Part shown: piece after piece, positions 8,752 to 30,720 of the stretch
How positions within the stretch are numbered: position 1 is the first letter of the stretch
How the letters are laid out: each line of letters begins with the position of its first letter
NCBI GenBank assembly: GCA_028875125.1
Contig: JAPPGC010000071.1
Span: 1-32,012, forward strand
Length of the DNA: 32,012 nt
Direction of reading: 5' to 3'
Source of the DNA: Bacteroidota bacterium
Lineage (GTDB): Bacteria; Bacteroidota; Rhodothermia; Rhodothermales; Bin80
The notes under the pieces: generated by a model
The model's database searches: none
Told to the model about the DNA's origin: nothing
Seen by the model: only the letters and a program-made list of their open reading frames with translations
Translations under genes and position numbers: made by a program

Positions 8752-9211
8752 TCAATGGCCCGATCTGACCGCAGACGCGCCGGAAGGTGAGGTATCAGTC
8801 ACTGTTGCGCACCAGGAGCTTGACTTTGATCTGAATCTCATAGAGCATCTAGTGTCCCGGGTGGCGGAGGGGGAAGATCAACGAATCCGGCAACTGGAAA
8901 TCACCCTCATGACTGCTGAACAGTTGCGTGAACTGAACAGGTCGTGGAGGGAAGCAGATTATGACACTGATGTTTTGAGTTTTTCGCTCAGTGACGGAAA
9001 GGCGCTGGACGGCGAGATCTACGTGAGCCTGGATTTTGCGCGAACCCACTGTCATACTTATGGGGCAACCTATACCGAAGAGGTCTGTCGATACATCGTG
9101 CACGGCATGCTTCACCTTCTGGGGTATGAAGACGATACCGTCAGAGGTGCGCGAACCATGCGCAGAAAAGAAGATCAGTATCTCCGCAGTGCAGGGGTTA
9201 GCGGTACCTGA
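8729..9211 (+). CDS. ybeY: Endoribonuclease YbeY (rRNA maturation factor)
   Basis: Single-strand metallo-endoribonuclease needed for 16S rRNA 3'-end maturation and ribosome quality control in the cytoplasm. The 160-aa length is usual. Hallmarks are DVLSFSL (81-87) and the metal site HGMLHLLGYEDD (H125, H129). The third His of the textbook HGxLHLxGYDH motif is replaced by an acidic residue (D135 region), a form I recall from Bacteroidota YbeY, so it is probably still active. ATG codons at 8729 and 8735 are both possible starts. The 3' end overlaps the convergent DoxX-like gene by 14 bp. The upstream overlap with the 8269 gene points to coupling. Confidence 0.93.
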   Translation: MRMETPPDQWPDLTADAPEGEVSVTVAHQELDFDLNLIEHLVSRVAEGEDQRIRQLEITLMTAEQLRELNRSWREADYDTDVLSFSLSDGKALDGEIYVSLDFARTHCHTYGATYTEEVCRYIVHGMLHLLGYEDDTVRGARTMRRKEDQYLRSAGVSGT

Positions 9212-10538: not shown

Positions 10539-12314
10539 ATGCTGACAATTGATCGAAGATCGTGGTTGCTGAGGGTTCCATTGGGAATCCTCGTACTGGT
10601 GTTAGTGGCTCTGTGCTCTGAGCCGGCATGGGCTGCCCCCCAGGAGGCCGATCCCGAGTACAGGGCACTGCCTTTCATAAGCAGCCGTGTCCTCATGTGG
10701 GCGGTCGCCGAGCTGCATTTGATGTTTGCAGCGTTTGTGTTGGCAGTTCCCATTTTTGCACTCGTCATAGAGTACATCGGATACAAGACCGGGGACCGGC
10801 GCTATGACCAATTGGCGTACGATTTTACAAAGTTGCTTTCGGTGTCGTTCTCATTCACAGCAACCTTGGGTGCGCTGCTTACGTTTGGGCTGATTGTCTT
10901 TTATCCAGCGCTCACCCAATATCTGGTAAAGATATTCAGTTGGACCTTTTTGCCGTACGTTCTGCTGTTCTTTCTTGAAGCGTTTTTCCTCTACGCGTAT
11001 TACTACGGCTGGGGGAAACTCCCTCCACGTCTCCACTTATTCCTGGGGGTGATGCTCAACATTGTGGGCACAGCGATCATGTTTATTGCCAACGCCTGGT
11101 TGACGTTCATGAACACGCCCAATGGGATTGACGAGATGGGCAACCTGACCAATCTCTGGGAGGCGATCAACAATTACATCTGGATGCCCATCAATATCCA
11201 CCGGATTATTGCCAATGTAGCATTTGGTGGAGCTATCGGGGCTGCCTACGGTGCCTTCAAATTCTTGGGCGCGAAAACACTGGAAGCCCGTGCCCATTAC
11301 GACTGGATGGGGTACATAGGCATTTTTGTGGCTATTTGTGCATTGCTGCCCCTCCCGTTTGCAGGTTACTGGTTGGGGGTGGAGATTTATGCGTACGACC
11401 AGAGCCTTGGAATCACGTTGATGGGAGGTACGTTTTCGTGGTTGTTTATCGTGCAGGCGGTACTGATTGGAAACCTGTTTCTGGCGGCCAACTACTATCT
11501 GTGGCTTAGTATGGCCCGAATACCGGGCGCAGAACGCTTCCGAGGGTTTATCAAGTACCTTCTGGGCATCATTACGCTTTGTTTTATCGTGTGGGCAACC
11601 CCGCATTCGCTTGTTGCGACGGTGGAAGAGGCCCGTGCGATGGGGGGGTCGCATCATCCCATACTGAATGTGCTGGGTGTGATGAGTGCGAAGAATACCG
11701 CGGTTAACCTGCTCATACTCACGACCTATGTCAGTTTCCTGCTCTATCGGCGTGCAAATAAGGAGGCGACTGTTTCGTGGGCCAAGACCGGGAACTGGAT
11801 TCAATTCGGCATATTCGCAGCTGTAGTCATCTACGTCGTATTTCTTGGGGTATACGGGTACTTTGTGGACGCCCAAACGCGTATAGGACTGAGTCAACCG
11901 CAGGTGATGTCTGTGTTGTTTGCGATGGTTTCCGTGACGGTCATTGACATTTTCCTGTTCAAGAATGCGAAGTCCCGCGGAGAAATCGTGTGGGGAAAAA
12001 TTTCGGCTCGATCGCAGTATGCCCTATTCTTCCTGGCGATCACGTTTACTTGGCTTATGGGTCTCATGGGCTATGTTCGCGCGGGTATGCGTCAGCATTG
12101 GCATGTGTATGGAGTAGTACGTGACACCTCCGTAGATGCGTTTACGCCGACACTGGGTTATGCTGGAGGTGTTGTGAGCGCGATTGTCATTGTATTCTTC
12201 CTGTTGATCGCGATTGTTTTCTTCCTGGCTGGACTTGCCGGTCGAAAGGATTGGGAACCTAAATCGGGATCGCGATGGAGTAAAGCGGAGGCATCCGCAA
12301 CTGTAGATTCTTAA
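10539..12314 (+). CDS. CydA-like subunit of a cytochrome bd-superfamily oxidoreductase (no CydB partner)
   Basis: 591-aa polytopic protein, first gene of the ten-gene operon. A hydrophobic N-terminus (to WAA, ~33) precedes the CydA-like core. Visible counterparts of CydA landmarks are H60 (AELHLMFAAF, like the b595 ligand), E147 (FFLEAFFLYAYYYGW, like the E99/E107 helix), ANAWLTFMNTPNG (184-196) and H221 (NIHRIIANVAFGG, like H186 of b558). Two features differ from quinol oxidases: the GRQPW motif is replaced by GYVRAGMRQHWHVYG (511-525, two extra His), and no E. coli-like Q-loop is seen. No cydB follows; three c-type cytochrome genes do. It is therefore probably a member of the non-quinol, cytochrome-c-linked branches of the superfamily. 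The reaction (O2 reduction or another acceptor) is not provable from sequence. Confidence 0.8.
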   Translation: MLTIDRRSWLLRVPLGILVLVLVALCSEPAWAAPQEADPEYRALPFISSRVLMWAVAELHLMFAAFVLAVPIFALVIEYIGYKTGDRRYDQLAYDFTKLLSVSFSFTATLGALLTFGLIVFYPALTQYLVKIFSWTFLPYVLLFFLEAFFLYAYYYGWGKLPPRLHLFLGVMLNIVGTAIMFIANAWLTFMNTPNGIDEMGNLTNLWEAINNYIWMPINIHRIIANVAFGGAIGAAYGAFKFLGAKTLEARAHYDWMGYIGIFVAICALLPLPFAGYWLGVEIYAYDQSLGITLMGGTFSWLFIVQAVLIGNLFLAANYYLWLSMARIPGAERFRGFIKYLLGIITLCFIVWATPHSLVATVEEARAMGGSHHPILNVLGVMSAKNTAVNLLILTTYVSFLLYRRANKEATVSWAKTGNWIQFGIFAAVVIYVVFLGVYGYFVDAQTRIGLSQPQVMSVLFAMVSVTVIDIFLFKNAKSRGEIVWGKISARSQYALFFLAITFTWLMGLMGYVRAGMRQHWHVYGVVRDTSVDAFTPTLGYAGGVVSAIVIVFFLLIAIVFFLAGLAGRKDWEPKSGSRWSKAEASATVDS

Positions 12315-12341: not shown

Positions 12342-13133
12342 GTGAAACAGGCCCTGAAAATATTTGGATTCACCATTGTGGTCAGCGTTTTTTATTGGTA
12401 CGTCAGTTTGTGGGTACCGCAGAAGCGAACAGAGCCGCCTGAGGATATAGAGATTGGCGCCAATCTTACCACAGAGGAGATGATTCCCATTGGTGAGGAA
12501 ATTGTAGCAGGCAAAGGGACCTGCCTGACCTGTCATACTATGGGAGACCATGGAACCGGGTTGCGTTTTCCGGATCTGGCCGGTATTGGTGCTATAGCTG
12601 GAGAACGTGTTGCGGGGCAAAGTGATGTTTACTATCTGGCAGAGTCAATGTATGATCCGAACGCGTACGTACTGGAAGGCTATGTGGCTGGAATGCCCAA
12701 CGTTGCCCGTCCACCGATTGCACTTACTGATCAGGAGATACTCACCGTGATCGCCTACCTGCAATCTCTCGGCGGAACACCGACGGTTACGATGGATACG
12801 CAACTTGAATGGCAGGGCCAAGCGCCCGCATCTCAGGACGTTGCTCCGGCAGCGGTAGGGGGGAATCGGGACGCAGAAACACTGTTCGCGGCGTACCTGT
12901 GCAATACCTGTCATACCCTGGATGGTACGGTAGCTGCTGGTCCAACGCTTCAAGGCTTGGGTGGACGCATGTCCAGGGCGGAAATCTACGAATCTATTGT
13001 AGACCCAGATGCAACAGTTACCGAGGGCTTTGTTGCAGGGGTGATGACCGCCATGCTTGACGCCACCGGTTTTCATGAACAGGTGTCTGCTTCGGAACTG
13101 CAGGCATTGGTAGATTATCTAGCTTCGCTTTAG
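12342..13133 (+). CDS. Membrane-anchored diheme c-type cytochrome
   Basis: 263-aa protein translated from a GTG start 27 bp after the CydA-like gene. One N-terminal helix (~6-25, FGFTIVVSVFYWYVSLW) anchors or exports it. Two cytochrome c domains follow: CLTCH at 61-65 with a distal Met candidate in GMPN (M118), and CNTCH at 187-191 with GVMTAM as distal candidate. Both domains show the usual DQEILTVIAYLQSL / SASELQALVDYLASL C-terminal helix. It likely shuttles electrons to or from the CydA-like subunit on the periplasmic side, replacing the quinol site. The linker between domains is rich in Ala, Pro and Gln. Confidence 0.88.
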   Translation: MKQALKIFGFTIVVSVFYWYVSLWVPQKRTEPPEDIEIGANLTTEEMIPIGEEIVAGKGTCLTCHTMGDHGTGLRFPDLAGIGAIAGERVAGQSDVYYLAESMYDPNAYVLEGYVAGMPNVARPPIALTDQEILTVIAYLQSLGGTPTVTMDTQLEWQGQAPASQDVAPAAVGGNRDAETLFAAYLCNTCHTLDGTVAAGPTLQGLGGRMSRAEIYESIVDPDATVTEGFVAGVMTAMLDATGFHEQVSASELQALVDYLASL

Positions 13134-13159
13134 GCTGATTGAATTGATATTGTTTGCCC

Positions 13160-13987
13160 ATGAATCTTTTTGTGCTTCTTGCGATAGCGGCGGCAATGGT
13201 TCTGGTCCAGTTCGTGGTGACACGCTGGGTCAAGCTTAACCTTCTAGCCTGGATGGGGATATGGTGGGTTGCGTTGTGGGCCGCGTTCTCGTACGGTATT
13301 AATCCACCGCTGCCGAATTCAATTATCGTGCTGTTCATGGCGATCATCACGATTGCGCTGGTTGCGTATCTGTCGGCGGATAACGAGGAGCTGAAGCAGG
13401 CCCAGGAATCGATCGTTCGTTTTATGGTAACCCGCCAGTATCGGGTTGCTTTGCTTATCGTAATGTTTTTGATTCCAGCAGCAGTGGCTGCCTGGACCTT
13501 TGCCAGTATGAACGAGGCGCCACAGCCACCTTCCAGTGGTCGTACGATACACCCGCCACCCCCGTCCTCAATTACCTTTCAGGGTACCTCGATCAATCTG
13601 ACAACCGCCAATAACCCCATCCGTGAACTCCAGCATACGGATGAAGCAGCCTTTGCAGAGCATGTTGCCAATGGGCGGCGGATTTACTTTGAGAACTGTT
13701 TCTACTGTCACGGGGACAATATGGAGGGGGCCGGGATGTTTGCGCATGGGTACGACCCGCTTCCGGCAAACTTCAATGATGCTACGACGATTGCAATGCT
13801 GCAGGAGTCCTATCTATTCTGGCGCATTGCAAAAGGAGCTCCGGGACTACCGTCGGAATCAACACCATGGTCAAGCGCAATGCCGGCATGGGAAGATTTT
13901 CTTACGGAAGAGGAAATCTGGGAAGTGATCATATTTCTGTATGAATTCACTGGATTTGAGCCACGGGCGCAGGGTATGCCGCATTAA
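13160..13987 (+). CDS. Membrane-bound monoheme c-type cytochrome
   Basis: About 275 aa from the ATG at 13160; an in-frame TTG at 13154 adds two residues and is less likely. Three hydrophobic segments occupy residues ~1-70 (FVLLAIAAAMVLVQFVV, NLLAWMGIWWVALWAAFSYG, SIIVLFMAIITIALVAYL), and a further helix lies at ~97-115. A proline-rich linker (HPPPPSS) leads into a C-terminal cytochrome c domain with CFYCH at C180-H184 and MPAW as a distal-Met candidate. It lies 26 bp after the diheme gene and 3 bp before the next, so it belongs to the same operon. The helices before the heme suggest an integral subunit of the complex, possibly taking the structural place of CydB; that is inference. Confidence 0.85.
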   Translation: MNLFVLLAIAAAMVLVQFVVTRWVKLNLLAWMGIWWVALWAAFSYGINPPLPNSIIVLFMAIITIALVAYLSADNEELKQAQESIVRFMVTRQYRVALLIVMFLIPAAVAAWTFASMNEAPQPPSSGRTIHPPPPSSITFQGTSINLTTANNPIRELQHTDEAAFAEHVANGRRIYFENCFYCHGDNMEGAGMFAHGYDPLPANFNDATTIAMLQESYLFWRIAKGAPGLPSESTPWSSAMPAWEDFLTEEEIWEVIIFLYEFTGFEPRAQGMPH

Positions 13988-13990: not shown

Positions 13991-15526
13991 ATGACGAGAA
14001 TGCGAATTTTGCTGACGCTATTGCTAGTGTATATCGCTTACCCTGCGGTTGCACAGCAGGAAAACGATCTTGGCACCGAGGCGCAACGCGCTGAGGGCAA
14101 AGAAGTCTATGATATCAAATGTGCACACTGTCACGGCTATGAGGGAGATGCCAGTGCCGTGGCGACGCCTTACCTGCGCCCGACGCCCCGGGATTTTACT
14201 TCAGGCAATTATAAATTCCGTTCAACAGCGAGCGGCGAGCTTCCCACTACAGAAGATATAAAGCGGAGTATTCGCCTCGGGATGCCGTACACGAGTATGC
14301 CCGCCTGGGAAGGGATCCTCTCAGAGACGGAAATCACCGACCTGGCCTACTATCTCAAGACGTTTGAACCTGCTTTCGACGGGCCGTATGGCAATCCTAC
14401 GGTGGTAGAGATCCCGCGTGCGCCCTCCTACTCAGCGGACCCGGATCACTTGGCACGTGGGCAAGAGATTTTTGCAGCCAATCAATGTGCAGACTGTCAT
14501 GGCGAGAACGGTCGCGGAAATGGCGAAAGTGCCCCAGAACTCATGGATGACTGGGGAGACCCGATTCGCGCGGCCGACATGACCAAGCGCTGGACATTCA
14601 GAGCCGGTGCTACACGTGAGGATATATATCGGACCTTCATGACCGGTCTGAATGGTACGCCGATGCCTTCGTATGAGCAGACGATTGACGCGGAGGATCG
14701 ATGGGCATTGGTAGATTATGTATGGTCGCTGTCGAGAGATACGCCGGATTATGGTACGACGGTTACGGTGCAGGGGCGATCGGGTGAGCTTGTGCTAAGC
14801 GAAGGTCTTTTTGAAGCAGCACCGCAAGTGTACTTTCCGATCGTAGGGCAGATAACTGAGCCCGGGCGTGCTTTCTATCCTGGCGTCAATGGTATTAGTG
14901 TAAAGGCGGTTTACAACAATTCGGAGATTGCGATCCAGCTACAGTGGCACGATATGACCGCAGAAACCGATGGTATGAATAACCCATTGATTGAAATGCC
15001 AATGTTTGATCCGGCACAGCCGGATACAACAATGGATGGGTGGTCGGACGCAGTGGCGATACTCCTGCCATCCCGCACGCCAGAGGGGTTGGAGCGCCCG
15101 TACTTCATGTTTGGTGACAGCAGGTTTCCGATGAGTATCTGGTACACAGATCTTGCTACGGACTCAGCTGCGGTATTAATAGGGCAGGGGTCGGGAAGGA
15201 TCGCTGATAACGGGATCGCTCTGGAAAGATCTGCCAGCTACGAGGATGGGGTTTGGACGGTCCAGTTCAAGGGGCCCCGTAACCAGGGAGAATTGACGAT
15301 GCCGGAAGCGACTTTTGTTCCGATTTCGTTTACGATATGGGACGGGTTTAACGGGGAGCGAGGCAATAAGCGCGGGCTTTCGGCGTGGTATCATTTGTAT
15401 CTGGAACCAATGGAGACACAATCTGCGGTGCTCCCTATGGCAAAGTGGTTCCTGATTGTATTGGGAGCAGAGCTGTTGATTGTGGGCCTGGTGAATTTAC
15501 GGGCGCGTCGCAGGAAAACCGCTTAA
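13991..15526 (+). CDS. Diheme cytochrome c fused to ethylbenzene-dehydrogenase-like heme-b domain, C-terminal anchor
   Basis: 511-aa exported protein. A signal peptide (MRILLTLLLVYIAYPAVAQ) is followed by two cytochrome c domains: CAHCH at 44-48 with GMPYTSMPAW, and CADCH at 166-170 with GTPMPSY. Residues ~240-475 resemble the EB_dh / DMSO-reductase gamma family (heme b binding; NAVYNNSEIAIQLQWHD-like and DSRFPMSIWYTDL strands). A single helix at ~483-503 with an RARRRK stop-transfer end anchors it. In known molybdoenzymes the gamma subunit carries one heme b and passes electrons outward; here it sits beside a CydA homologue with no molybdenum enzyme in view. Spacing of 3 bp on both sides fixes it in the operon. 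Confidence 0.85.
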   Translation: MTRMRILLTLLLVYIAYPAVAQQENDLGTEAQRAEGKEVYDIKCAHCHGYEGDASAVATPYLRPTPRDFTSGNYKFRSTASGELPTTEDIKRSIRLGMPYTSMPAWEGILSETEITDLAYYLKTFEPAFDGPYGNPTVVEIPRAPSYSADPDHLARGQEIFAANQCADCHGENGRGNGESAPELMDDWGDPIRAADMTKRWTFRAGATREDIYRTFMTGLNGTPMPSYEQTIDAEDRWALVDYVWSLSRDTPDYGTTVTVQGRSGELVLSEGLFEAAPQVYFPIVGQITEPGRAFYPGVNGISVKAVYNNSEIAIQLQWHDMTAETDGMNNPLIEMPMFDPAQPDTTMDGWSDAVAILLPSRTPEGLERPYFMFGDSRFPMSIWYTDLATDSAAVLIGQGSGRIADNGIALERSASYEDGVWTVQFKGPRNQGELTMPEATFVPISFTIWDGFNGERGNKRGLSAWYHLYLEPMETQSAVLPMAKWFLIVLGAELLIVGLVNLRARRRKTA

Positions 15527-15529: not shown

Positions 15530-16774
15530 GTGGACAGGAAGACGTACATACCGTCACTCGTATCGTGGAATCTGACCAAAAAATGCAACTTACAGTGTCC
15601 ACACTGCTATCTGTCTGCCGGACGCGCGGCTGATCGGGAGTTGACCACCGATGAGTGCCTTGCATTGCTTGAAGAAATGCGGACTCTCGGTACTGAAATG
15701 CTCATCCTGACGGGCGGCGAACCACTCCTGAGGAGAGATATCTACCAACTTGCAGAGACTGCGAGTGCTATGGGCATGTGGGTTGTGATGGGTACCAACG
15801 GCGTACTTGTGACGCGTGCTGTTGCCCGCAAAATGGTTGAGTGTGGTGTCAAAGGAGTCGGGATCAGTATTGATTCTGCCGACCCCGAACGCCACAATGC
15901 ATTCAGGGGGGGACGCAATGCGTGGCAGCACTCGGTACGCGCGCTACAGATCTGCCGGGAAGAGGGGCTGGAAGTGCTCGTGCAGACTACGGTCATGGAA
16001 GAAAATTACGACGAGATTCCCGCGCTCCTGGATTTTGCAAGGGATCACGGAGCGTGGTCGTTCAATCTGTATTTTCTGGTGCAGACCGGACGGGGGCAGG
16101 GGATGACCGATCTTTCGGCCGCGGCGACAGAAGCCATGCTAACGCGACTGGTAGATCTACAGGAAGACTATCGCCCCATGTTGGTACGCAGCAAGTGTGC
16201 GCCCCAATTCAAGCAGATTGCCTATGCTATGGGTCGCGGAGGACTCGAAAGTGGCGGATGCATGGCGGCAACAGAATATTGCAGAATTACACCGGAGGGA
16301 AATGTCACGCCCTGTCCCTATATGGATGTGGTAGCTGGAAGTGTGCTGGAGGAGTCTTTCACGACAATCTGGGATTCCTCCGCTGTTTTTGCAGAACTCA
16401 GGGACACCGCAAACCTGAAAGGGCGCTGCGGTGCATGTGAGTTCAAGGATCTATGCGGCGGTTGTCGGTGCCGGGCCTTTGCTGCCGCGGGGGATTACTT
16501 GGCAGAAGACCCTGGCTGTGCCTATCAGCCCACGGGCACAGCTCTGCCGGAGGCGGTACTGTGTTGGGATCAGGCCGCTCAGGACCGTCTTATGCGGATT
16601 CCAATTTCGTTCATTCGCAACAAGACTCGGAAAGGCGTTGAAGCGTACGCTCGCAACAAGGGCGTATCAAGCATTACCACTGAGGTCATGAATGGCGCAC
16701 TCAGCGGTATGCAGCGGACCAAGGCATTTGGCGCAGCGCCTGCCTTTTCAAGAAAACCTACACACCTCGTTTAG
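15530..16774 (+). CDS. Radical SAM/SPASM enzyme with C-terminal PCP_red-like domain (NirJ/AhbD-like)
   Basis: 414-aa protein from a GTG start. The [4Fe-4S]/SAM motif CNLQCPHC (C19, C23, C26) and GGEP (62-65) mark a radical SAM core. A SPASM-type cysteine-rich region spans ~244-330 (YCRITPEGNVTPCP, CGACEFKDLCGGCRCRAF, DPGC). The WNLTKKCNLQCPHC start and the CGGCRCRA...GDYLAEDPGC ending recall heme-pathway enzymes such as NirJ (heme d1) and AhbD (heme b by the siroheme route). Residues 346-391 are a PCP_red-like domain (WDQAAQDRLMRIPI...VEAYARNKG...ITTEV), a family known from the BchB/ChlB C-terminus. A tetrapyrrole or peptide-modifying role is inferred. It likely matures a cofactor for the operon's oxidoreductase. 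Confidence 0.85.
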   Translation: MDRKTYIPSLVSWNLTKKCNLQCPHCYLSAGRAADRELTTDECLALLEEMRTLGTEMLILTGGEPLLRRDIYQLAETASAMGMWVVMGTNGVLVTRAVARKMVECGVKGVGISIDSADPERHNAFRGGRNAWQHSVRALQICREEGLEVLVQTTVMEENYDEIPALLDFARDHGAWSFNLYFLVQTGRGQGMTDLSAAATEAMLTRLVDLQEDYRPMLVRSKCAPQFKQIAYAMGRGGLESGGCMAATEYCRITPEGNVTPCPYMDVVAGSVLEESFTTIWDSSAVFAELRDTANLKGRCGACEFKDLCGGCRCRAFAAAGDYLAEDPGCAYQPTGTALPEAVLCWDQAAQDRLMRIPISFIRNKTRKGVEAYARNKGVSSITTEVMNGALSGMQRTKAFGAAPAFSRKPTHLV

Positions 16775-16777: not shown

Positions 16778-16996
16778 ATGCCATTCTATATTACGCAGGA
16801 GTGTACGGCATGTGGTGATTGTGTAGATATGTGTCCAATTGAGGCTATTAGGGTTGACGATCCTATTTACGTGATTGAACCCGAGTGTACAGATTTTATG
16901 GAGTGCTTGGCCTTCTGTGAGGTTGATGCTGTTCAGCCGATTCCAGAAATGAGTGAAGAGTCTGCCTCAACCGTTACGCTTGCGGCCAATGGTTGA
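16778..16996 (+). CDS. Small ferredoxin, one complete and one incomplete cluster motif
   Basis: 72-aa ferredoxin. The N-terminal motif CTACGDCVDMCP is a complete 4Fe-4S pattern. The second, CTDFMECLAFCEVDA, lacks the second cysteine of CxxCxxC (Phe in its place) and the proline after the last, so it may hold a 3Fe-4S cluster, use another ligand, or be empty. It lies 3 bp after the radical SAM gene and overlaps the next gene's ATG by 8 bp. The likely job is electron donor to the radical SAM enzyme or to the PCP_red proteins; this is inference. Confidence 0.9.
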   Translation: MPFYITQECTACGDCVDMCPIEAIRVDDPIYVIEPECTDFMECLAFCEVDAVQPIPEMSEESASTVTLAANG

Positions 16997-17318
16997 AAAC
17001 GAGATTCAATATCTCCCCTGGCAGCAGTTTCGTCAGATGGTCCCGCCAATCCTCGGATTGGAGGTCAGGCGACTTTCCCGACACATTGCAGACGCGGATC
17101 CGTCCTCGGATACACGTAACCAATTGGTTAAAACACGGTTTGAACTCAGGCGGTTCATTGCCTGTGTAGAGAAGGCAGATGAAGAAGAGAGAGGTTCGTG
17201 TGGAGCTTTTCTGGATGCTGCGTTACTAAACGTTGCTGCTATCGGTGACCGCCCGGAAATGGATTATGTGATTGACAGACTTCGTTATGTGCGTGATCGA
17301 ATCCCTTATGTTTATTGA
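16989..17318 (+). CDS. Hypothetical protein, 109 aa, in the bd-like operon
   Basis: Not recognised. The ATG at 16989 overlaps the ferredoxin stop by 8 bp, which suggests translational coupling; a GTG at 16953 would extend it by 12 residues inside the ferredoxin. The protein is soluble and almost all-helical with many charged residues (RRLSRHIADADPSS, TRFELRRFIACVEKADEEER), and has two cysteines (C58 and C69 approximately) not arranged as a metal site. It may be a small helical partner or adaptor for the maturation proteins on either side. Confidence 0.75.
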   Translation: MVENEIQYLPWQQFRQMVPPILGLEVRRLSRHIADADPSSDTRNQLVKTRFELRRFIACVEKADEEERGSCGAFLDAALLNVAAIGDRPEMDYVIDRLRYVRDRIPYVY

Positions 17319-17342: not shown

Positions 17343-19271
17343 ATGTACAAGAAGATTTTCGTACCGGTTGACAATTCTGAGCATTCGCTCAGTGCTGTTG
17401 ATTTGGCGGTAACCCTTGCCGAACAGTTTGATTCGACGGTTGTAGCGAGTCATGCATACGCAGCACGTATGCATGACTATCGATTCAAGCAAATGGAATA
17501 CACGCTTCCAGAGGAGTACCTGATTGAGGAAGCGATGGAGAAGCAACGCAAGATTCACGACACGTTGATCACAATGGGACTCGAGCTCATCAGTGATTCC
17601 TATCTGGTTGTGGCAGAAGAGCGTTGTAAAGCCGCCGGCGTGCCGTTTGAACCGAAGATGTATGACGGTAAGAACTGGAAGGTGATTGCTAAGGACATTG
17701 ACGAGAGTGACTACGACCTCGTGATCATGGGTGCACTGGGTTTGGGGGCCGTCAAGGACAGCACCATTGGGAGTGTATGTGAGCGTGTCACACGTCGGGT
17801 ACGCAAAGACACTTTGGTGATCAAGAATCTTGATCCGGGGACGGTCAGCGTTGACGGAAAGCCCGAGGGCAATATTGTCGTCGGAATTGACGGCAGTCCA
17901 GAGTCTTTCGCTGGTCTGCGTACTGCTATTGAGCTTGGTCAGAAGACGGGACGTCAGGTTGAAGCGGTATCGGTATACGATCCCTACCTGCACTATGCAA
18001 TGTTCAACAGCATTGTTAATGTGCTGACGGAAAAGGCATCAAAAGTCTTCAGGTTCAAGGAGCAGGAGCAGTTACACGAAGAGGTTATTGACACCGGACT
18101 GGCCAAGATATATCAGTCTCATCTGGATATTGCCAGGCGGATTGCGGATGAGGCAGAGGTAGATCTAAAAATCACGTTACTTGACGGCAAGGCGTTCGAG
18201 AAGATGCTGCAGTACGTCAGGCGTGAAGAGCCGTGGCTGTTGGTTCTGGGACGTATCGGGGTGCATAGTGACGAGGATATGGACATAGGGAGCAACACGG
18301 AGAACCTTCTTCGTCAAGCGCCATGTAATATCTTGCTGTCCAGTCAGCGGTTTGTGCCGCCTGTGGACGTAAGTGCTGAAGAGTCCATGCTATGGACGGA
18401 GCCTGCTACCCTCCTACTGAATACTGCTCCCGACTTCGCACGTGGAATCGCACGTACAACAATTCATCGGTGGGCCATGGAGCGTGGACACTCCGTGATT
18501 ACCCGCAAGATAGTTGAACAGGCTATGGGTAATATCCTGCCGCGCTCGTCCATGATCAAGATGGGCATTATTGCAGAGGATACCGCAGCCAAGGAAATAG
18601 TGAACGGGGAGTCTGTAACATGGATTTGCAGTCAGTGTGGATATTCAGCGCGCGATTTTGAACCCGTACGATGCGCCGTGTGCGGCAGCCCCGCGGCGGC
18701 ATTCCAGAAGCTGGACAAGGATGCGATTGCGCAATTGGCCAAACTGGAAGGTGGTTCACGGGAGCAAGGAACCTTTGATGACGTCCGCCTGAAATGGACT
18801 AAGGAAGCGTTGAAAGAAATTCGTTCTGTTCCTGATGGTTATCAGATGCGCCGGGCCAAAGCCCAGATTGAAAAACGGGCACGCGTACAGCGTGTACCTA
18901 CGATCACGCTCGGTATGGTGCGCGCGGTGTTGACCGGTAATGCTGAAGAACTGCAGAACCTCACACCAGGTGGGCATTTGAAGACGGTTGGTGAGCATGC
19001 TGATGGCTCACGTGAAGCCCCAACAAGGAAGGCCGCAGAGGATCTGATACAGGATGGAGAGTTTTTATGGGCAAAAAATGCTCGAGCGCGGCTCAGCCGG
19101 GTCCCTGAGGGCTTCATGCGTACGCGCACGAAGGAGCGAATAGAAGCGGTAGCACGTACTTCCAAGACGAACCTGATCACGCTGGCAATCACCGAAGAAG
19201 GAATCAGGGATGGAATAAAGCTAATGGAGGAAATGATCCAGGAACAGGCGAAAGCTGATTCGGATAACTGA
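17343..19271 (+). CDS. Double UspA protein fused to three PCP_red-like domains and a rubredoxin-like zinc/iron knuckle
   Basis: 642 aa with an unusual layout. Two UspA domains come first (~1-165 and ~175-335); the first keeps the ATP-binding pattern G130-xx-G133-x9-GS. A PCP_red-like domain follows at ~351-395 (WTEPATLLLN...WAMERGHSVITRKIVEQAM), then a rubredoxin-like knuckle with C429, C432, C444 and C447. Two further PCP_red-like domains sit at ~485-530 (WTKEALKEIRSVP...RVPTITLGMVRAVL) and ~576-621 (WAKNARARLSRVP...NLITLAITEEGI). UspA domains bind nucleotides, and PCP_red domains contact protochlorophyllide in DPOR. A role as scaffold or sensor for tetrapyrrole loading is inferred. It is 24 bp after the small gene and 41 bp before the Mrp gene. 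Confidence 0.85.
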   Translation: MYKKIFVPVDNSEHSLSAVDLAVTLAEQFDSTVVASHAYAARMHDYRFKQMEYTLPEEYLIEEAMEKQRKIHDTLITMGLELISDSYLVVAEERCKAAGVPFEPKMYDGKNWKVIAKDIDESDYDLVIMGALGLGAVKDSTIGSVCERVTRRVRKDTLVIKNLDPGTVSVDGKPEGNIVVGIDGSPESFAGLRTAIELGQKTGRQVEAVSVYDPYLHYAMFNSIVNVLTEKASKVFRFKEQEQLHEEVIDTGLAKIYQSHLDIARRIADEAEVDLKITLLDGKAFEKMLQYVRREEPWLLVLGRIGVHSDEDMDIGSNTENLLRQAPCNILLSSQRFVPPVDVSAEESMLWTEPATLLLNTAPDFARGIARTTIHRWAMERGHSVITRKIVEQAMGNILPRSSMIKMGIIAEDTAAKEIVNGESVTWICSQCGYSARDFEPVRCAVCGSPAAAFQKLDKDAIAQLAKLEGGSREQGTFDDVRLKWTKEALKEIRSVPDGYQMRRAKAQIEKRARVQRVPTITLGMVRAVLTGNAEELQNLTPGGHLKTVGEHADGSREAPTRKAAEDLIQDGEFLWAKNARARLSRVPEGFMRTRTKERIEAVARTSKTNLITLAITEEGIRDGIKLMEEMIQEQAKADSDN

Positions 19272-19312: not shown

Positions 19313-20167
19313 TTGGGACAAGTTGCCCAGCAGCACGATCGGCTAAAGGAGCGTCTGGCGCAGATCGGGAATGTTTTCGCGGTGATGAGCGGAAAAGGAG
19401 GGGTTGGAAAAAGCACTGTGACGGCCTGTCTGGCGGATGGTCTGGCCAGGCTGGGCGCGCGTACTGGCGTATTGGATGCAGATCTGAATGGACCCTGCAT
19501 GGCTCGCATGATGGGAGTAAAAGACCATAAGCCGTCGCCGCAAAATGGCGCAATGATCGCTGCTCGCAACGCGTATGGTGTGCCGGTCATGTCCATGGAT
19601 ATGTTTTTGCCGGAGGACGAAACCCCGCTCGTGTGGGAAGCATCATCCCAGCAAGGCGCCTATACCTGGCGCTCAATGGTTGAGATGAGTGCACTTCGGG
19701 AACTGCTCTCAGACACGGATTGGGGTGATCTGGATGTGTTGCTGATAGATTTGCCTCCTGGAGCCGAACGGCTTCAGAACTTAGCGGACCTATTACCGGA
19801 TCTGACGGGTGCAATTGTAGTTTCTACGGCATCACAGACAGCGATGACGGTTGTGTCCCGTTCGATTTTGATGGCATTGAATGTTGCGGATGTCAGGATT
19901 ACCGGTGTGGTTGAGAACATGAGTACAATGATTTGTTCGGAGTGTGGATGTACGGAGAAAATGTTTATCGGGGCCGAGACGGTGGAGGAACTGGCCGAGC
20001 GGCATGGTGTCCCCTATTTGGGGGCTATTCCATTCAATATTACGCTTGCCGATTTTTTGGAGACGGGCAGATCTTACATTGAGGAGCATGCGGTGCATCC
20101 AGCAGCCCATGCGATTCTGGATGTTGCCAAACGTGTACATTTCTGGCTTAATAATCAATCAAAGTGA
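19313..20167 (+). CDS. Mrp/NBP35-family Fe-S carrier P-loop ATPase
   Basis: 284-aa cytoplasmic ATPase of the Mrp/ApbC/NBP35 group, which binds and transfers Fe-S clusters. The deviant Walker A is SGKGGVGKST (26-35), with the family's second lysine. The LDADLNGP strand (54-61), the DLPPG switch (146-150) and a cluster-binding cysteine site (C208, C211, C213 in MICSECGC, the usual CxxC place) are all visible. The start is a TTG directly after an in-frame TGA, and no ATG precedes the Walker A. It overlaps the next gene by GTGA. In this operon it most likely delivers clusters to the ferredoxin or radical SAM enzyme. I would not call it chromosomal mrp, since the gene is operon-specific. Confidence 0.88.
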   Translation: MGQVAQQHDRLKERLAQIGNVFAVMSGKGGVGKSTVTACLADGLARLGARTGVLDADLNGPCMARMMGVKDHKPSPQNGAMIAARNAYGVPVMSMDMFLPEDETPLVWEASSQQGAYTWRSMVEMSALRELLSDTDWGDLDVLLIDLPPGAERLQNLADLLPDLTGAIVVSTASQTAMTVVSRSILMALNVADVRITGVVENMSTMICSECGCTEKMFIGAETVEELAERHGVPYLGAIPFNITLADFLETGRSYIEEHAVHPAAHAILDVAKRVHFWLNNQSK

Positions 20168-20655
20168 AATTTTTGTGTGTTCCCTGCGACCAGCCGATGG
20201 CTCTGAAGTCTACGCATGGTCCATTTGACGGCTCAATGTCCATCATATATGAATGTCCGACCTGCACGATGCAGACAGCGATGCTGACCAACAGGGCCGA
20301 GACCCAGATGGTTCGCTCACTGGGTGTCAGGATCGGTGGACGGACTACACCAGAAGAACCCATGGAAACCCTCCGATCAAATCTCTCATCAGGCGGGAAA
20401 GAGTCAAAGGGACAACCTCCTTCTTCAAGTGGTAAATGTCCTTTTACGGGGATGGTCAATGACGCGATTGGGGCCGCAGAGCCTGAACCAAAAAAGCCTG
20501 TTTGGACCGCGGGAGCGCTGGCTCGTATTGAAGCAATCCCCCCCTACATCCAGCCCATGGTCAAGCAAAATGTCGAGAGTTTTGCCCGCGAGCAAGGCTG
20601 TTCAGAGATTGATGAGGATGTGATGGATGCAGTGAGGGGGACTCTAGGTATGTAG
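20164..20655 (+). CDS. Zinc-ribbon protein with C-terminal PCP_red-like domain
   Basis: 163 aa from a GTG start that overlaps the Mrp stop by 4 bp. The N-terminus is a zinc-ribbon-like pair, CVPC (C5, C8) and CPTC (C31, C34). A disordered Ser/Gly/Pro linker follows and contains a GKCPFTGM segment, whose CPF may be another metal site. The last ~47 residues are a PCP_red-like domain (WTAGALARIEAIPPYIQPMV...FAREQGCSEIDEDVMDAV), the fifth copy in the operon. It is the last gene of the run. Function unknown; a tetrapyrrole- or Fe-S-binding adaptor is plausible. Confidence 0.8.
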   Translation: MKFLCVPCDQPMALKSTHGPFDGSMSIIYECPTCTMQTAMLTNRAETQMVRSLGVRIGGRTTPEEPMETLRSNLSSGGKESKGQPPSSSGKCPFTGMVNDAIGAAEPEPKKPVWTAGALARIEAIPPYIQPMVKQNVESFAREQGCSEIDEDVMDAVRGTLGM

Positions 20656-21485: not shown

Positions 21486-24400
21486 ATGGATTGGTACGCT
21501 AAGGCACTGAATGAGCTTACAAACAAGCCCAGGGCTCACGAATCTGAGGTTTGTACCCACTTAATTACTCCCTTGCTCATGGAAGTATTGGGATTTTCCA
21601 TCAGCGAGATTGATATGGAGCGCCAAGAGGGTCGTCGGCCTGACTATGTGTGCACACGGTCAGGCTCGCGTTATGCGAATGTGATAGTAGAAGCCAAAAG
21701 ACTGAACACGGATCTTTGCAGGCGTACGACACAGAATTTCGCGTCCAGTCCGGTAGGTCAGCTCCGGCGATATTTAAATACTTTCCCGGCCGCAGACGAA
21801 GGTACATGGGGCGTAGTAACCAACGGGACACAATGGATGATTCTACGGAGAACCGGGGGGCGTGTACCTACAACGGCCATTGGTGAGCCAGTGGAAGCTC
21901 GTTCACTGGCTCGGATTACTGAGTTGCTATCTCCTTTGCGCGAACGTACCAAGTCAAGTAGTAAAGTCCAGGAAGCCCCCGCTCCTAACGATTGGTTTTC
22001 CGTCGCTGCTTACTGTGAATCTCCGCGCCAGTTTTTGCAGAGTATAGCCCCGAGCGCTGAGATACAAACGGGGTGGAATAGTGCATCCTTCGCACATGTC
22101 GGAGAATATACTCCTCTGAACGGTCAAATATTCCCCGAGCCCATCTATCTGGCGTGCCTGTCAATTGATTTCCCCGACGGGAGACTGTCTGCACACGACA
22201 TAGCGGAGGAGCTTCTGATGTTGCCCAATGGGGATGGGCGCGTGGCCGGTATTGCGTATACAGCCTCCCGGTCTGATGGCAATCGCTACGTACGTGCGTT
22301 TCTGCGGGAAGATGGGAAATTGCATGCCACAGCCCTTGTGGACGCCCAGCTCCCCGGGTCTCGGGCGACCCGCCAAGTCCGTTTGCTGGCAAAGGCTTTT
22401 GAAAACCCTAACGTCAGCAATGTGATAACAGCCTTTTCTGCCGAATCACTACAGCGGCAGTTTCACGAGGAGATCAGTGCTTGGTTCTTGGATACCGCAG
22501 GGAGGCGCAGTGAGCTACGACACCTTATTCGGATTCTCTTTGTCTGGCTTCTGCAGGAGCGGGGGGTAGTCCCTGATGACACCTTGTGGCAGGCTGAAAT
22601 AAATTGGCGCGAACTGCCAGAGGGCTCCATTCATGACCACATCTTGTGGTTGTTTGAAAAGATTCTGCCCAAACCAATGGATGCCCGCTCACCTTCGACC
22701 TCTAACTGGCGCGCTAAACTGATCCTGACCGTTCCATTCCTGAATGGATCACTATTTACAGAGCTCAAAGCAGAAGATCAGCCCGAACCCCTGGCCAATG
22801 CACAGTATGTTGACCTTGAACAAGGATTGTTTTCCATACTCGGACGCTATGACTGGACCCTTAGTGAGCGTACCGGATACGCCACAGAATCCGCCATAGA
22901 TGCCTCAATGCTGGGCGATCTCTTTGAGAGGCTTATTTTGGTAACAGATGGCCCCCGCATTGAGCCGGATGACCACATCAAGATGCCCGGGGGAACTTAT
23001 TACACCCCCCAGGACATTGCCGACGAGATGGTCGCAGACGCGCTATCTGGATGGACAGAGCGTAAAGTGGGGGGCGATGTATCCCTCCACGATTTGTTCC
23101 ATCCTGCCCCTCGGTCCCGCGAGTGGGAAAATCTGACTGGCCGCCAGTTGCTGGCGATTTTGAAGGCACTTGAGGGTGCTAATATCCTGGATCCGTGCTG
23201 CGGAAGCGGTGTGTTCACCGTTGCTGCTTTACAAGGCTTGTGGCGCGCACGCAAGCGACTACTATTAACCTTACGTACCAGTGGCGATCTCACGGAACGT
23301 ACTAATTCGCTTGATGACATTATTGAGCACAACCTGTTTGCCACTGATATTCATCCATTAGCAGTGCTCATCACCAGGCTCCGCATTTTCATTGCACTAG
23401 TAGATATCCGGGGGCACGAATTAAAGCCGCTGCCCAACCTGGATACCCGGATTGTTGCGGCCAATACCCTTTGTGTAAATTTAGGAGGCCAACTATCCAT
23501 TGAGGATCCGGGCATCAAGGGGCTCATCGGAGATCTTGGCGCAGTTCGCGAAGCATGGACTACCGCCTATAGACCAGAGGATAAGAAGACGGTTTTGAAT
23601 TTGGATGGAGAAATTCGAGCCAAAATTCACAATAAGTCCGATTGGGGATCAGACGACGAATCTGAGTGGCTTGCGGTTGATCTGTTGTATCCTGCGGCTC
23701 CACCCGCCAACATGGATATTCGCCTACTATTCCCTAAGCCGGATGGCTGGGATATCGTCATTGGCAACCCGCCTTATCAGCAACCTGACTTGGCTGACAC
23801 CTTCCGCGGCAAACGCCTGAGCTACATTGGGGCTAAAACTAATCTATACCTCATGTTTATGGAGGCTGCATTGAACGTCGCACGCAGGGGAGGCGTCGTG
23901 ACTTTAATTGTCCCCCACTCGATTATATTCCAGCGTTCAGCCAAGGCCTATGAACGGGTTCGTAACCGAATTGAGCACCTATCTGAACGAGTGGATATTC
24001 GCACGTACGACAACCGACCGCAGCCTGTTTTCCCTCAGTTACCATGGCTGAAAGCGGGTAGTGATAAGACGAATCGCCAGAGGGTAACGATTGTCCGCAT
24101 TCTATTATCCGGGCCTGACGGCAATTCCGAACAATGTGCCATCTACAGTAGAGGCCTCTTGAGATTATCATCAAAAGACCGCCTCCGCGTTCTCCGAAGT
24201 CGTTTATCTCCCCAACTTCAGCCCCGAACTCCAGGTCAGTGGACTCAGGCACCGACTCGCGATTTGGCGCTATTGCTCAAACTCATGCGGGAGGAGAAGC
24301 CAATGATAACATCTGGGCGGCGTGTCACGATTTCAAAGTCTGCCATGTACTTCATTACGTGCCTGCCAGCGGAACGCCTCGCTAACCCAAGTAGGAAGCA

Positions 24401-24968
24401 ATTTTTCCTTGCGAGGGATGAGTTCTACTGGGCTTGGATTGGGCTTTACAATTCCCATCTCTTCCATGCGTATTGGCTGATGATGGGAAACCATATGGAC
24501 CTTACGTCCAACACATACGCGTCAGTGCGTTCACCAGAAGGCTGGAACGACAAAGCGCTGCTAGCCAAGACGACCTCAATTGCGAAGATGCTTACCAGCC
24601 CAGCAATGATTGGGAAATGCCGCAAAGTGTACAGGGGTAAAGGTGGCAAGGAGTTTCCCAACTGCGACTTTCACGACCATCCAGAAGGGGAGGCACTCAT
24701 TGAGAAGCTGGATCGGCTCCTGCTCCAGGCGTACGGACTGCCGGAGGATCCGTTGCTCTCCCAGATGCATACCATTCGGACCGGGAGCGCACATCAGTTA
24801 CAGAAAAGCGCACCCTCTTACAATCAACAGTGCGGGGGTGCAAGCTTCTGCGACTTAATTGGCTTTTCTATCACCGAAGTTTGGTCGTGTGACCAGCGCA
24901 TCAAAGATATTCAGAACGACGTCAACATTTACAGCATTCCCGAAGGCTCTGTACGCGCTACCTTTTGA
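21486..24968 (+). CDS. Type IIG restriction-modification enzyme (nuclease, adenine-N6 methylase and specificity in one chain)
   Basis: 1160 aa, Eco57I/MmeI-like. The N-terminal PD-(D/E)XK nuclease is visible: RRPDYV (D53) and VIVEAKR (E69, K71), with the Q-loop PVGQLRRYL. The methylase has the PGGTYYTPQDIADEMV pre-motif (~500), the SAM site ILDPCCGSGVF (~566-576) and the catalytic NPPYQQ (~760). The rest (~830-1160) is the likely target-recognition domain. It modifies adenine and cuts at a distance from its site; the site cannot be read off. The last 114 bp overlap antisense with the end of the Dcm gene, so the final ~38 residues are encoded opposite conserved methylase motif X. The original C-terminus may have been lost or extended when the Dcm operon arrived. 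Confidence 0.9.
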   Translation: MDWYAKALNELTNKPRAHESEVCTHLITPLLMEVLGFSISEIDMERQEGRRPDYVCTRSGSRYANVIVEAKRLNTDLCRRTTQNFASSPVGQLRRYLNTFPAADEGTWGVVTNGTQWMILRRTGGRVPTTAIGEPVEARSLARITELLSPLRERTKSSSKVQEAPAPNDWFSVAAYCESPRQFLQSIAPSAEIQTGWNSASFAHVGEYTPLNGQIFPEPIYLACLSIDFPDGRLSAHDIAEELLMLPNGDGRVAGIAYTASRSDGNRYVRAFLREDGKLHATALVDAQLPGSRATRQVRLLAKAFENPNVSNVITAFSAESLQRQFHEEISAWFLDTAGRRSELRHLIRILFVWLLQERGVVPDDTLWQAEINWRELPEGSIHDHILWLFEKILPKPMDARSPSTSNWRAKLILTVPFLNGSLFTELKAEDQPEPLANAQYVDLEQGLFSILGRYDWTLSERTGYATESAIDASMLGDLFERLILVTDGPRIEPDDHIKMPGGTYYTPQDIADEMVADALSGWTERKVGGDVSLHDLFHPAPRSREWENLTGRQLLAILKALEGANILDPCCGSGVFTVAALQGLWRARKRLLLTLRTSGDLTERTNSLDDIIEHNLFATDIHPLAVLITRLRIFIALVDIRGHELKPLPNLDTRIVAANTLCVNLGGQLSIEDPGIKGLIGDLGAVREAWTTAYRPEDKKTVLNLDGEIRAKIHNKSDWGSDDESEWLAVDLLYPAAPPANMDIRLLFPKPDGWDIVIGNPPYQQPDLADTFRGKRLSYIGAKTNLYLMFMEAALNVARRGGVVTLIVPHSIIFQRSAKAYERVRNRIEHLSERVDIRTYDNRPQPVFPQLPWLKAGSDKTNRQRVTIVRILLSGPDGNSEQCAIYSRGLLRLSSKDRLRVLRSRLSPQLQPRTPGQWTQAPTRDLALLLKLMREEKPMITSGRRVTISKSAMYFITCLPAERLANPSRKQFFLARDEFYWAWIGLYNSHLFHAYWLMMGNHMDLTSNTYASVRSPEGWNDKALLAKTTSIAKMLTSPAMIGKCRKVYRGKGGKEFPNCDFHDHPEGEALIEKLDRLLLQAYGLPEDPLLSQMHTIRTGSAHQLQKSAPSYNQQCGGASFCDLIGFSITEVWSCDQRIKDIQNDVNIYSIPEGSVRATF

Positions 24969-26147
24969 ATCAGGAAGATTCGGCAACATCCCCATGCTTT
25001 GCAGACGACTGCACTCCCGTGGTGTCATATAACGCTTCTGCCATGCTATTATTGGCACCTGGCTAGTAGTCATTGCAATGAGAGAGGGGGCAGTTTCGGT
25101 TCTTCTCACGCGAATGCCACTTGCTCGAAACTGGAGCAGGTGCTTCCAGATGTTCCGCTCACTATCCTTGCAATTCCATTCAAGTTTCTGAAAGCTGGGC
25201 GGGAATACCCGAACCTTGTTAAGCCAGCCATCGATCAACTCTTGGTAGCGGGTGTAAAAAGCACGGTTCTTTTGGATGAAGTTAATCTTCCACCGAGGAA
25301 AAGTATCCCGCTTTGTCCGGGCATACCCAGGAAGAGCTTCTGCGACATTCCCAGGAGACAAGTTCTTGAGTGGTTGCCCAAAAGCTCCCCTGAATGCCCC
25401 CAACTTGGTATAACCCCTTCTGTAGGGAGTCAGACCATCTACTGGATAGTTTGCCCCAAACTCCATGGCCCAGATTGGAAAAGAGGGAAAGTCCTCGTCT
25501 GGAGGGAAAGCCGAAATAAACTCCTGCCAGGTTTCAAGATAATTGATGTGGTCTTTGTTCAGAACTAGGGCATCTTTGGGGGAGTCATCTAGAACCGTGC
25601 GGATCGATAAATCAGGCATTTTATCCGTAAGAGGCCACCTGAATCCTTTCAAGCCTTGTCGGTCACCCACAATGAAGGTGCGTTCCCGCTTCTGCGGAAT
25701 GCCGAACATGTGGGGGGACAGCTTTTCAAAACTGATATTGTAGTCCACACGAAGTTGGTCGCAGATAGTATCCCACGTTTTACCGTTATTGTGTCTAACA
25801 AGGTTGGGGACATTCTCAATAATAAAATAACGGGGCCCCTTGGCCTCCAGGATTCTGACAACATAACTGAACAGGTCGCCCCATTGCGGGCATTTCAGCC
25901 CTTTTTGATCGCCTGCTTTGGAGAAGGGCTGGCAGGGGAATCCGGCACATAGAACATCATGATCAGGTATTGCGGAAGGCCTGATCTTCCTGATATCCCC
26001 CCATGGGGGGATCCCGAAATTCTTTTCGTATAGGCTCGAGAGTTTGGGGTCAACTTCTGACGCAAAAACACATTGCCCTCCCCGTTGTCTGAGTGCTTGG
26101 TGAAATCCACCAAGGCCTGCAAACAAGTCAATAAATTTGATCGCCAT
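24855..26147 (-). CDS. DNA C5-cytosine methyltransferase (Dcm/type II family)
   Basis: 430-aa SAM-dependent enzyme that methylates C5 of cytosine. All key motifs are in order: I FIDLFAGLGGF (5-15), IV GFPCQPFSKAG (catalytic C72), VI ENV (111-113), VIII PQKRER (151-156), a target-recognition region at ~190-330, IX-like TAPSLIAMTT, and X YRAFGNAVNVDVV near the end. It starts 1 bp after the nuclease-like gene and follows the ParB-domain gene in the same direction, so it is the modification part of a restriction-type operon. Convergent with the type IIG gene, overlapping it by 114 bp. Motif X is intact, so this gene appears functional. Confidence 0.95.
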   Translation of the reverse strand: MAIKFIDLFAGLGGFHQALRQRGGQCVFASEVDPKLSSLYEKNFGIPPWGDIRKIRPSAIPDHDVLCAGFPCQPFSKAGDQKGLKCPQWGDLFSYVVRILEAKGPRYFIIENVPNLVRHNNGKTWDTICDQLRVDYNISFEKLSPHMFGIPQKRERTFIVGDRQGLKGFRWPLTDKMPDLSIRTVLDDSPKDALVLNKDHINYLETWQEFISAFPPDEDFPSFPIWAMEFGANYPVDGLTPYRRGYTKLGAFRGAFGQPLKNLSPGNVAEALPGYARTKRDTFPRWKINFIQKNRAFYTRYQELIDGWLNKVRVFPPSFQKLEWNCKDSERNIWKHLLQFRASGIRVRRTETAPSLIAMTTSQVPIIAWQKRYMTPRECSRLQSMGMLPNLPDSKGSAYRAFGNAVNVDVVLNIFDALVTRPNFGDRKAN

Positions 26148-26148: not shown

Positions 26149-27060
26149 TTACTCCTGCTTAAGAGCTTCTATTCTCGGGGTCAACCACTTGTTCAGATCT
26201 GAGCCAAGTTTAGGTGGAACTTGGCTGCCGACTCTGTCAAGAGGAGCAATAAGCCTTAGACGGTCAAGTAGGATACCATCTACGCGATTAGCAATGCGCC
26301 GAAACTCCCTCTTTGTTGACAGGACGTAAGGGATTGCTAACCCGCGAGTAGGAGTGAATAGAAACTTGATGAGGTCCCCCCAATACTCAAGATCCGGAGT
26401 CTTGATCTTGGATTTCCAATTCCGACCGGAAGCGCATTGAAAAAAATATAGGGGGTGCCCTCCTCGGCCATCCGAAAATGGTTTATCAACTACTAAGTCC
26501 AAGCCGCCATCTTTGCCATCCTCCTCGATCCATTCTTCAATATCACTTGCAACGGGTTCCTCGATGTGTGACGACACCTCTTCAACCAGTTCTCGCACAT
26601 TGCTGGAATTTGTTGAGGGCTAGCCGGTTTTATGCGTCCGCCAACCTCTCGCAGCCATAGAACATTCGGTGAGTCTCTCAAACAACTCCCCCTGCTCCTT
26701 AGAGGAAGTGTCCCTACAGGAGCACCAATCCCTGAGAGCCAGTGTAAGACAAAACGAGTAGGCAGGAAATTCCTTCCAATGGCCTTCTGGGGTTACTCCG
26801 TCTGAATCTATGCGCAGCGCGCGGATTCCGCCATGCCTCACCCGATACTTGATGTCACTCCATAGGTTAGTAATGAAATGCCAGGCAAAGTCGTCGTTTC
26901 TGTAGACTTGCTCCTCAATGAGCCTGTCAACAACATCGCTCTTGGAAATACGCGTTTGAGTAAGAAGTACAGAACCTTCGATCCAGTCAGCCACAACATC
27001 AACACGGCAATTGTGTTGCTTCACGGAAGGCCGAAGCCCCTTTGAAGGAATGCGGAGCAT
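26149..27060 (-). pseudogene. Restriction-nuclease-like gene split by an in-frame TAG
   Basis: A 304-codon frame reads through with one interruption, TAG at 26620-26622 (codon 147). Before it the product ends ...LFERLTECSMAARGWRTHKTG; after it the same frame continues PSTNSSNVRELVEEV... to the natural stop. Both halves look protein-like, and the second holds a nuclease-like core (DGGLDLVV with D at codon 188, then YFFQCASGRNWKSK). The residues suggest a PD-(D/E)XK-type core, though the classical (E/Q)xK lysine is not clear. The ATG at 27060 shares its A with the TGA of the ParB-domain gene (TGATG), so the frame was built to be co-translated. A GTG at 26598 could restart the second part. Likely the restriction partner of the Dcm gene, inactivated while the methylase survived. 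Confidence 0.75.
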
Positions 27061-28160: not shown

Positions 28161-28315
28161 TATCGTCTGGTGAAGTGATAGAGCAGGTAAACCAAACAAT
28201 CTAGGGTGCACGCAAACTGCACCCGGTTTGCCTAAATATAACGTCAGAGCATTGAACTATAACAGCACGGGAGGGCAAAAGGCTGTAATCATGCCTGGCG
28301 CCGCGTATGAGCGGG

Positions 28316-30248: not shown

Positions 30249-30254
30249 ATCTTG

Positions 30255-30336: not shown

Positions 30337-30342
30337 TAGTCG

Positions 30343-30424: not shown

Positions 30425-30429
30425 ATTTG

Positions 30430-30713: not shown

Positions 30714-30720
30714 AAAATTT

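Follow-up and report, generated by a model that had tools for sequence, protein, structure and literature searches.

What does a protein that joins two universal stress protein (Usp) domains, three PCP_red domains and a four-cysteine metal knuckle do within an operon for a cytochrome bd-like oxidase? This question is raised by an open reading frame at positions 17343–19271 (forward strand) of the window, that is, the whole stretch of 32,012 nucleotides from a Bacteroidota bacterium of the Rhodothermales that was analyzed here. The frame starts with ATG and encodes a soluble-looking product of 642 aa, ordered as Usp-Usp-PCP_red-Cys4-PCP_red-PCP_red. A first-pass annotation, made from the sequence, had regarded this architecture as unusual and suggested an ATP-gated scaffold that holds a cofactor or senses redox state for the oxidase.

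Domain Architecture and Conservation of the Fusion

The proposed domain order was recovered with Pfam and a family-specific HMM, together with the alignment of homologues. Two stretches match Usp (PF00582; 136.9 bits against a cut-off of 24). Usp domain 1 occupies residues 1–161 (17343–17825; all segments of the protein lie on the forward strand) and contains D10 and the motif G130-x2-G133-x9-G143-S144, and Usp domain 2 extends over residues 176–333 approximately (17868–18341), with D183, G303, G306 and G316. These aspartates, as well as G130, G133, G143 and the three glycines of the second domain, are invariant in 60 aligned sequences, which supports ATP-type motifs in both Usp domains. Of 75 full-length fusions, 31 keep the strict G-2x-G-9x-G-(S/T) spacing in each of the two domains, 40 in one and 4 in neither. 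Moreover, each Usp domain bears a long helical insert, at residues 39–95 in Usp1 (17457–17627; MHDYRFKQME...TLPEEYL...RKIHDTLITMGLELISDSYL) and at residues 211–264 in Usp2 (17973–18134; YDPYLHY...VFRFKEQEQLHEEVIDTGLAKIYQSHL).

The C-terminal half contains PCP_red-1 (residues 350–396; 18390–18530), a rubredoxin/rubrerythrin-like Cys4 knuckle (residues 425–457; 18615–18713), PCP_red-2 (residues 483–530; 18789–18932) and PCP_red-3 (residues 575–622; 19065–19208). Pfam finds the three PCP_red stretches with a joint score of 75.3 bits (cut-off 32.5); PCP_red-2 on its own, at 28.0 bits, falls under that cut-off, and all three copies are recovered at 61–63 bits by the family-specific HMM. The knuckle consists of two CxxC pairs (CxxC-x11-CxxC), and its match to RUBY_RBDX (PF21349; residues 427–454) reaches 20.7 bits, under the cut-off of 26.5; the best PDB match of the rubrerythrin C-terminal type is 3mps (E = 0.025). 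All 60 aligned homologues keep C429, C432, C444 and C447 and, given this invariance, the weak-scoring knuckle is real. TIGR01278 matches the C-terminal tail alone (43.6 bits against a cut-off of 490), and the nitrogenase-like catalytic domain is missing. No DNA-binding or kinase domain was found in the fusion with Pfam.

An AF2 model of the fusion, built from a 60-row alignment, has a mean pLDDT of 79.3 and a pTM of 0.55, so the single domains seem reasonably modelled, but not their arrangement with respect to each other. The top PDB folds are tandem Usp proteins, namely Rv2623 (3cis, E = 3.5e-17) and TTHA0350 with ATP (3ab8).

A homologue scan over one genome per species yielded 79 loci, with identities to the fusion of 98% in Rhodothermales and down to about 45–50% in other phyla, including Acidobacteriota, Planctomycetota, Methylomirabilota, Dormibacterota, Chloroflexi, Myxococcota, Verrucomicrobia and others. 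The domain order is common to 75 full-length proteins of 45–98% identity, Bacteroidota and Entotheonella among them, and the domain-architecture search proposed at the outset therefore found linked domains, rather than homologues in which they occur only separately. According to the family-specific HMM, 72 of the 75 have exactly three PCP_red domains, and the other three (two from Entotheonella and one from a proteobacterial MAG) have two. Since the order is kept across many phyla, chance and misassembly are both untenable; a chimeric open reading frame was ruled out because assemblies of many different projects, covering many phyla, contain the same fusion. No plasmid-borne copies were found.

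Conservation is highest in a region that the first-pass annotation had overlooked, the helical Usp inserts. Their mean column identities are 0.83 in Usp1 and 0.87 in Usp2, the latter being the most conserved stretch of the protein, with values of 0.69, 0.65 and 0.59 for PCP_red-1 to -3 and 0.53 for the knuckle region. The inserts include the conserved residues H44, H72, H217, H245, E246 and H260. With a conservation above that of the PCP_red domains and the knuckle, the inserts are the best candidates for the main surface by which the protein works or docks.

The Operon and Its Surroundings

The fusion is one of ten genes on the forward strand between 10539 and 20655, separated by gaps of at most 41 bases and with two overlapping pairs; judging from this spacing, they are probably transcribed as one unit. 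Scans for promoters and terminators gave counts not clearly above those of shuffled sequences. The run starts with a CydA-like cytochrome bd-type oxidase subunit I (10539–12314) and continues with a cytochrome c with two Cytochrom_C stretches (12342–13133), a cytochrome c with a CBB3-type match (13154–13987), both assigned by Pfam, and a cytochrome c (two stretches) joined to EB_dh, which resembles the heme b subunit of type II DMSO reductases (13991–15526). These are followed by a radical SAM/SPASM protein of AhbD/NirJ2-like type with a C-terminal PCP_red domain and an intact C19xxxC23xxC26 motif (15530–16774), a 4Fe-4S ferredoxin (16778–16996) and a 121-aa hypothetical protein that occurs in Rhodothermales-type loci only (16953–17318). 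Downstream of the fusion, a P-loop ATPase of the Mrp/ApbC (NUBPL) type (19313–20167) and a protein with a zinc ribbon, an invariant CPF motif and a C-terminal PCP_red domain (20164–20655) complete the operon. The Mrp/ApbC partner is present in 60 of 88 loci.

Three operon proteins, the fusion, the radical SAM protein and the zinc-ribbon protein, thus carry five PCP_red domains, those on the two partners having been missed earlier. No further PCP_red domain above threshold was found elsewhere in the genome, and BchB is likewise absent; an origin of the operon's PCP_red domains as a remnant of chlorophyll synthesis is ruled out by these two observations. In the AF2 model of the zinc-ribbon partner, the first three structural matches are 2kru, 2l09 (asr4154) and 2ynm (DPOR subunit B), with modest E-values of 0.0025–0.05, and superposition on 2kru, the solved PCP_red domain of BchB, gives an rmsd of 1.2 and a TMt of 0.79. 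All 46 zinc-ribbon/PCP_red partners share the CPF motif (residues 92–94) without change, and 39 of 74 fusions have a CP motif in their C-terminal part. CP motifs of this kind bind heme in some proteins, and those found here are possible heme ligands.

In NCBIfam, the AhbD/NirJ2 pair of models gives the radical SAM protein 346.3 and 299.5 bits, both under the cut-off of 500 bits. The genome encodes a ferrochelatase, so ordinary heme b does not depend on this enzyme; given the ferrochelatase and the score under the equivalog cut-off, a role as ordinary heme b synthase is unlikely.

On the reverse strand, a 390-aa protein with two DoxX stretches (9198–10370) is divergent from the oxidase operon and keeps the same position in close Rhodothermales relatives. 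Elsewhere in the window, a Type IIG-like Eco57I restriction-methyltransferase of 1160 aa (21486–24968, forward strand) is convergent and overlaps with a C-5 cytosine DNA methylase (24855–26147, reverse strand), and a gene at 27060–28211 (reverse strand) matches PD-Lambda-5_A models, which together suggest a defence island. Eight tRNA genes (Ser, Leu, Leu, Gly, Trp, Phe, Ala and Ser) lie at 30163–31199 on the reverse strand, where several short ORF calls overlap them.

The Oxidase

The Pfam match of the oxidase subunit covers profile positions 2–240 of the 418 in CydA and does not include the whole length of the subunit with its quinol loop. Moreover, the genome has no match to CydB (PF02322), and the enzyme thus differs from a canonical quinol-oxidising cytochrome bd. 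H60 is highly conserved and H221 invariant, within the regions that align to known CydA, and both are candidate heme ligands.

The oxidase resembles the OR-N (or OR-C) bd-like oxidases, CydAA', in having CydA without CydB and cytochromes c in the operon (PMC10839748, PMC12342949). For OR-N enzymes, cytochrome c is described as the probable substrate and experimental characterisation as lacking (PMC10839748), and OR-N5 CydAA' of Nitrospirales is reported to lie beside alternative complex III (PMC12342949). In Acidobacteriota, alternative complex III-like genes (ActA/ActB) lie directly upstream of the same CydA and cytochromes, a likeness to OR-N5 that is solely one of gene context. Unlike the operon described here, the OR-N/OR-C oxidases appear in the available parts of those descriptions with no mention of an accessory PCP_red kit (PMC10839748, PMC12342949).

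Variation of the oxidase was seen in two groups. In eight loci of the Dormibacterota/Chloroflexi type (L033, L050, L052, L063, L066, L067, L068 and L081), a distinct CydA-like gene and a cytochrome b come after the fusion, so that the same fusion accompanies an oxidase arranged differently. The CydA homologues of genomes G060, G063, G065 and G066 are long open frames (about 760–810 aa) with split matches, which suggests that the oxidase subunit contains inserts or is fused to other sequences.

Co-Occurrence of the Fusion and the Oxidase

The suggested link to the oxidase proved sound in two phyla. Among 178 genomes, the fusion and the oxidase clade are both present in 31 and both absent in 147, and the association is kept where the genes are unlinked. 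In the own genome and its relatives from the order and related groups (59 genomes), the same 20 contain the fusion, PCP_red and a close CydA (E < 1e-270), the fusion being detected in two of them by a partial match alone, at the end of a contig, and all three are absent in the other 39, including four of the nine other genomes of the same genus. In the phylum Acidobacteria (that of genome G064, locus L030; 119 genomes), strong CydA and the fusion occur in the same 11. The hypergeometric chance of these patterns, 3.6e-16 for the 59 genomes and 9.5e-16 for the 119, is uncorrected for relatedness; both relatedness and operon co-transfer make these figures exaggerate the association. Weak CydA matches (1e-13 to 1e-20) are present in four genomes of the 59, in one of them besides a close CydA; CydB adjoins the weak match in all three such genomes covered by the CydB search, and these matches are therefore canonical bd.

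As a more stringent check, the association was followed in 21 genomes whose retrieved stretch showed the fusion but no close CydA next to it. A CydA match is present in 18 of them, 14 of these matches being close (E <= 1e-102) and four diverged (1e-20 to 1e-30); the latter belong to G075–G078 (Dormibacterota/Chloroflexi) and lie beside the fusion in three. The three genomes with no CydA match have contigs that start inside the cytochrome genes of the operon. Operon co-transfer could account for part of the co-occurrence. However, the fusion and CydA are located on separate contigs in several genomes (e.g., L025, L026, L029 and L080), and the relationship is therefore more than co-transfer. The link between the fusion and the oxidase is strong.

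The PCP_red Kit in Other Genomes

PCP_red searches of 16 genomes of the kind just described, followed by blast of the matching frames, revealed a recurring trio formed by the fusion, the zinc-ribbon/CPF/PCP_red protein and the AhbD/NirJ-like radical SAM protein with PCP_red. In a chromosome-level assembly of Entotheonella, the radical SAM protein of the trio is encoded about 1.9 Mb away. The cultured Sulfidibacter corallicola M133 (locus L062) has the fusion and the zinc-ribbon protein. The trio is smaller in the Dormibacterota/Chloroflexi genomes searched, where the zinc-ribbon protein gives way to a CP-motif protein that carries two or three PCP_red stretches and a radical SAM partner was not found; thus, the radical SAM step is not universal. 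Besides the usual trio, genome G068 (L166) has an extra open frame with three PCP_red stretches.

Three genomes of the Acidobacteria sample have PCP_red and lack the kit, with a true BchB in G188 (542.6 bits against TIGR01278), a match that resembles BchB in G164 and a short frame in G106. In loci of Methylomirabilota, TA06 and Entotheonella, the fusion lies beside Cox and/or CtaB genes.

Possible Role of the Fusion

Taken together with its genomic distribution, the fusion very probably has an accessory role for the oxidase. As to what this role could be, we tentatively favor, with a confidence that falls somewhat short of even, an ATP-binding assembly scaffold in a relay that matures the tetrapyrrole cofactor of the bd-like oxidase or loads it into the enzyme. 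The tandem Usp half would bind ATP as a pseudo-dimer, and its two conserved helical inserts would dock onto the oxidase or the kit, while the C-terminal half would display the three PCP_red modules and the Cys4 metal knuckle. Through PCP_red on the fusion, on the AhbD/NirJ-like radical SAM protein and on the zinc-ribbon protein, the three proteins could meet around a tetrapyrrole, with Mrp/ApbC as the source of Fe–S clusters and the ferredoxin as the source of electrons. A modified or protected heme would be made and then loaded into CydA. A tetrapyrrole is proposed as the cargo because heme-modifying enzymes are the nearest relatives of the radical SAM protein, because PCP_red is otherwise known from an enzyme that reduces a tetrapyrrole, and because the oxidase to be served contains heme. 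AhbD and NirJ modify side chains of heme (PMC7242693). The dependence on ATP, or gating by it, and the direction of the relay are likewise inferred, as is redox sensing by the Cys4 knuckle. PCP_red might serve for docking alone and, since the fusion lies beside the heme-copper (Cox/CtaB) cluster in some lineages, the client may be broader than CydA. A more far-reaching version, in which the PCP_red kit constitutes an undescribed tetrapyrrole pathway that makes and delivers a modified heme for CydB-less, cytochrome c-linked bd-type oxidases only, seems unlikely.

Other functions would also be compatible with part of these observations. The Usp half could sense ATP/AMP or low oxygen, and the knuckle the redox state, so that the fusion would tune the expression or activity of the oxidase with no part in building it. 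The invariant glycine motifs and aspartates of the Usp domains and the nearest folds, Rv2623 and ATP-bound TTHA0350, agree with such a regulator, as does the increase under low oxygen of UspA proteins encoded beside electron-transport operons in Nitrospira marina (PMC8115632), which are comparable as UspA only. However, it would leave unexplained the three PCP_red copies and those on the co-travelling radical SAM and zinc-ribbon proteins, and the lack of a recognizable DNA-binding or kinase domain also speaks against it, which makes a purely regulatory function rather doubtful. Alternatively, PCP_red could be no more than a docking module, in a system that handles no tetrapyrrole and in which Mrp/ApbC, the zinc ribbon, the knuckle and Usp insert metal or Fe–S clusters. 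The frequency of the Mrp/ApbC partner, the two Cys4 sites of zinc-ribbon/rubredoxin-like type and the small size and multiple copies of PCP_red would fit this delivery, but the radical SAM partner is nearest to heme-modifying enzymes, no Fe–S centre is known in the heme protein that would be the client, and the PCP_red matches examined outside the kit are BchB or BchB-like, plus one short frame; we consider it improbable.

The proximity to Cox and/or CtaB in Methylomirabilota, TA06 and Entotheonella could also reflect a general helper of both CydA-like and heme-copper oxidases, e.g., a heme chaperone, with no specificity for the bd-like enzyme. Nevertheless, the genomes with Cox/CtaB-type loci carry a bd-like CydA too, and the absence of the fusion from 147 of 147 sampled genomes without that CydA renders such a general function very unlikely.

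Relation to Known Systems and Biological Meaning

The domains of the fusion are already known, and it is the combination and the kit for which no description was found. In tandem universal stress proteins (Rv2623, 3cis; TTHA0350, 3ab8; UspE), there are likewise two Usp folds per chain with the ATP-motif glycines; the fusion differs from them in its conserved oxidase operon, in the long and conserved helical insert of each Usp domain and in a C-terminal half that carries three PCP_red domains and the Cys4 knuckle. With subunit B of DPOR (BchB/ChlB), the source of the Pfam PCP_red family, it has the sequence and fold of PCP_red in common, but it lacks the nitrogenase-like catalytic domain, bears three copies on a Usp protein and occurs in a genome without BchB. 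Similarly, the operon radical SAM protein has AhbD and NirJ2, radical SAM heme enzymes, as its best NCBIfam matches and differs from them in scoring under their curated 500-bit cut-offs and in having a PCP_red domain. The knuckle shares CxxC-x11-CxxC with P and G/F positions with the C-terminal rubredoxin domain of rubrerythrin, but its Pfam score is below the cut-off and no di-iron domain accompanies it. A search limited to literature outside subscription found no published description of the fusion architecture or of the kit.

We know of no assembly factors for CydB-less bd-like oxidases. These enzymes, which occur in nitrite oxidisers and many uncultured phyla, are described in the literature as lacking experimental characterisation. 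A kit that tracks one oxidase clade without exception across 178 sampled genomes provides named candidates for their maturation, and the fusion together with the zinc-ribbon PCP_red protein could serve as a genomic marker for organisms with such an oxidase. The kit also places PCP_red, otherwise a domain of chlorophyll synthesis, in respiration and, if the more far-reaching version above is true, PCP_red would be a general tetrapyrrole-handling module of respiration, beyond chlorophyll synthesis.
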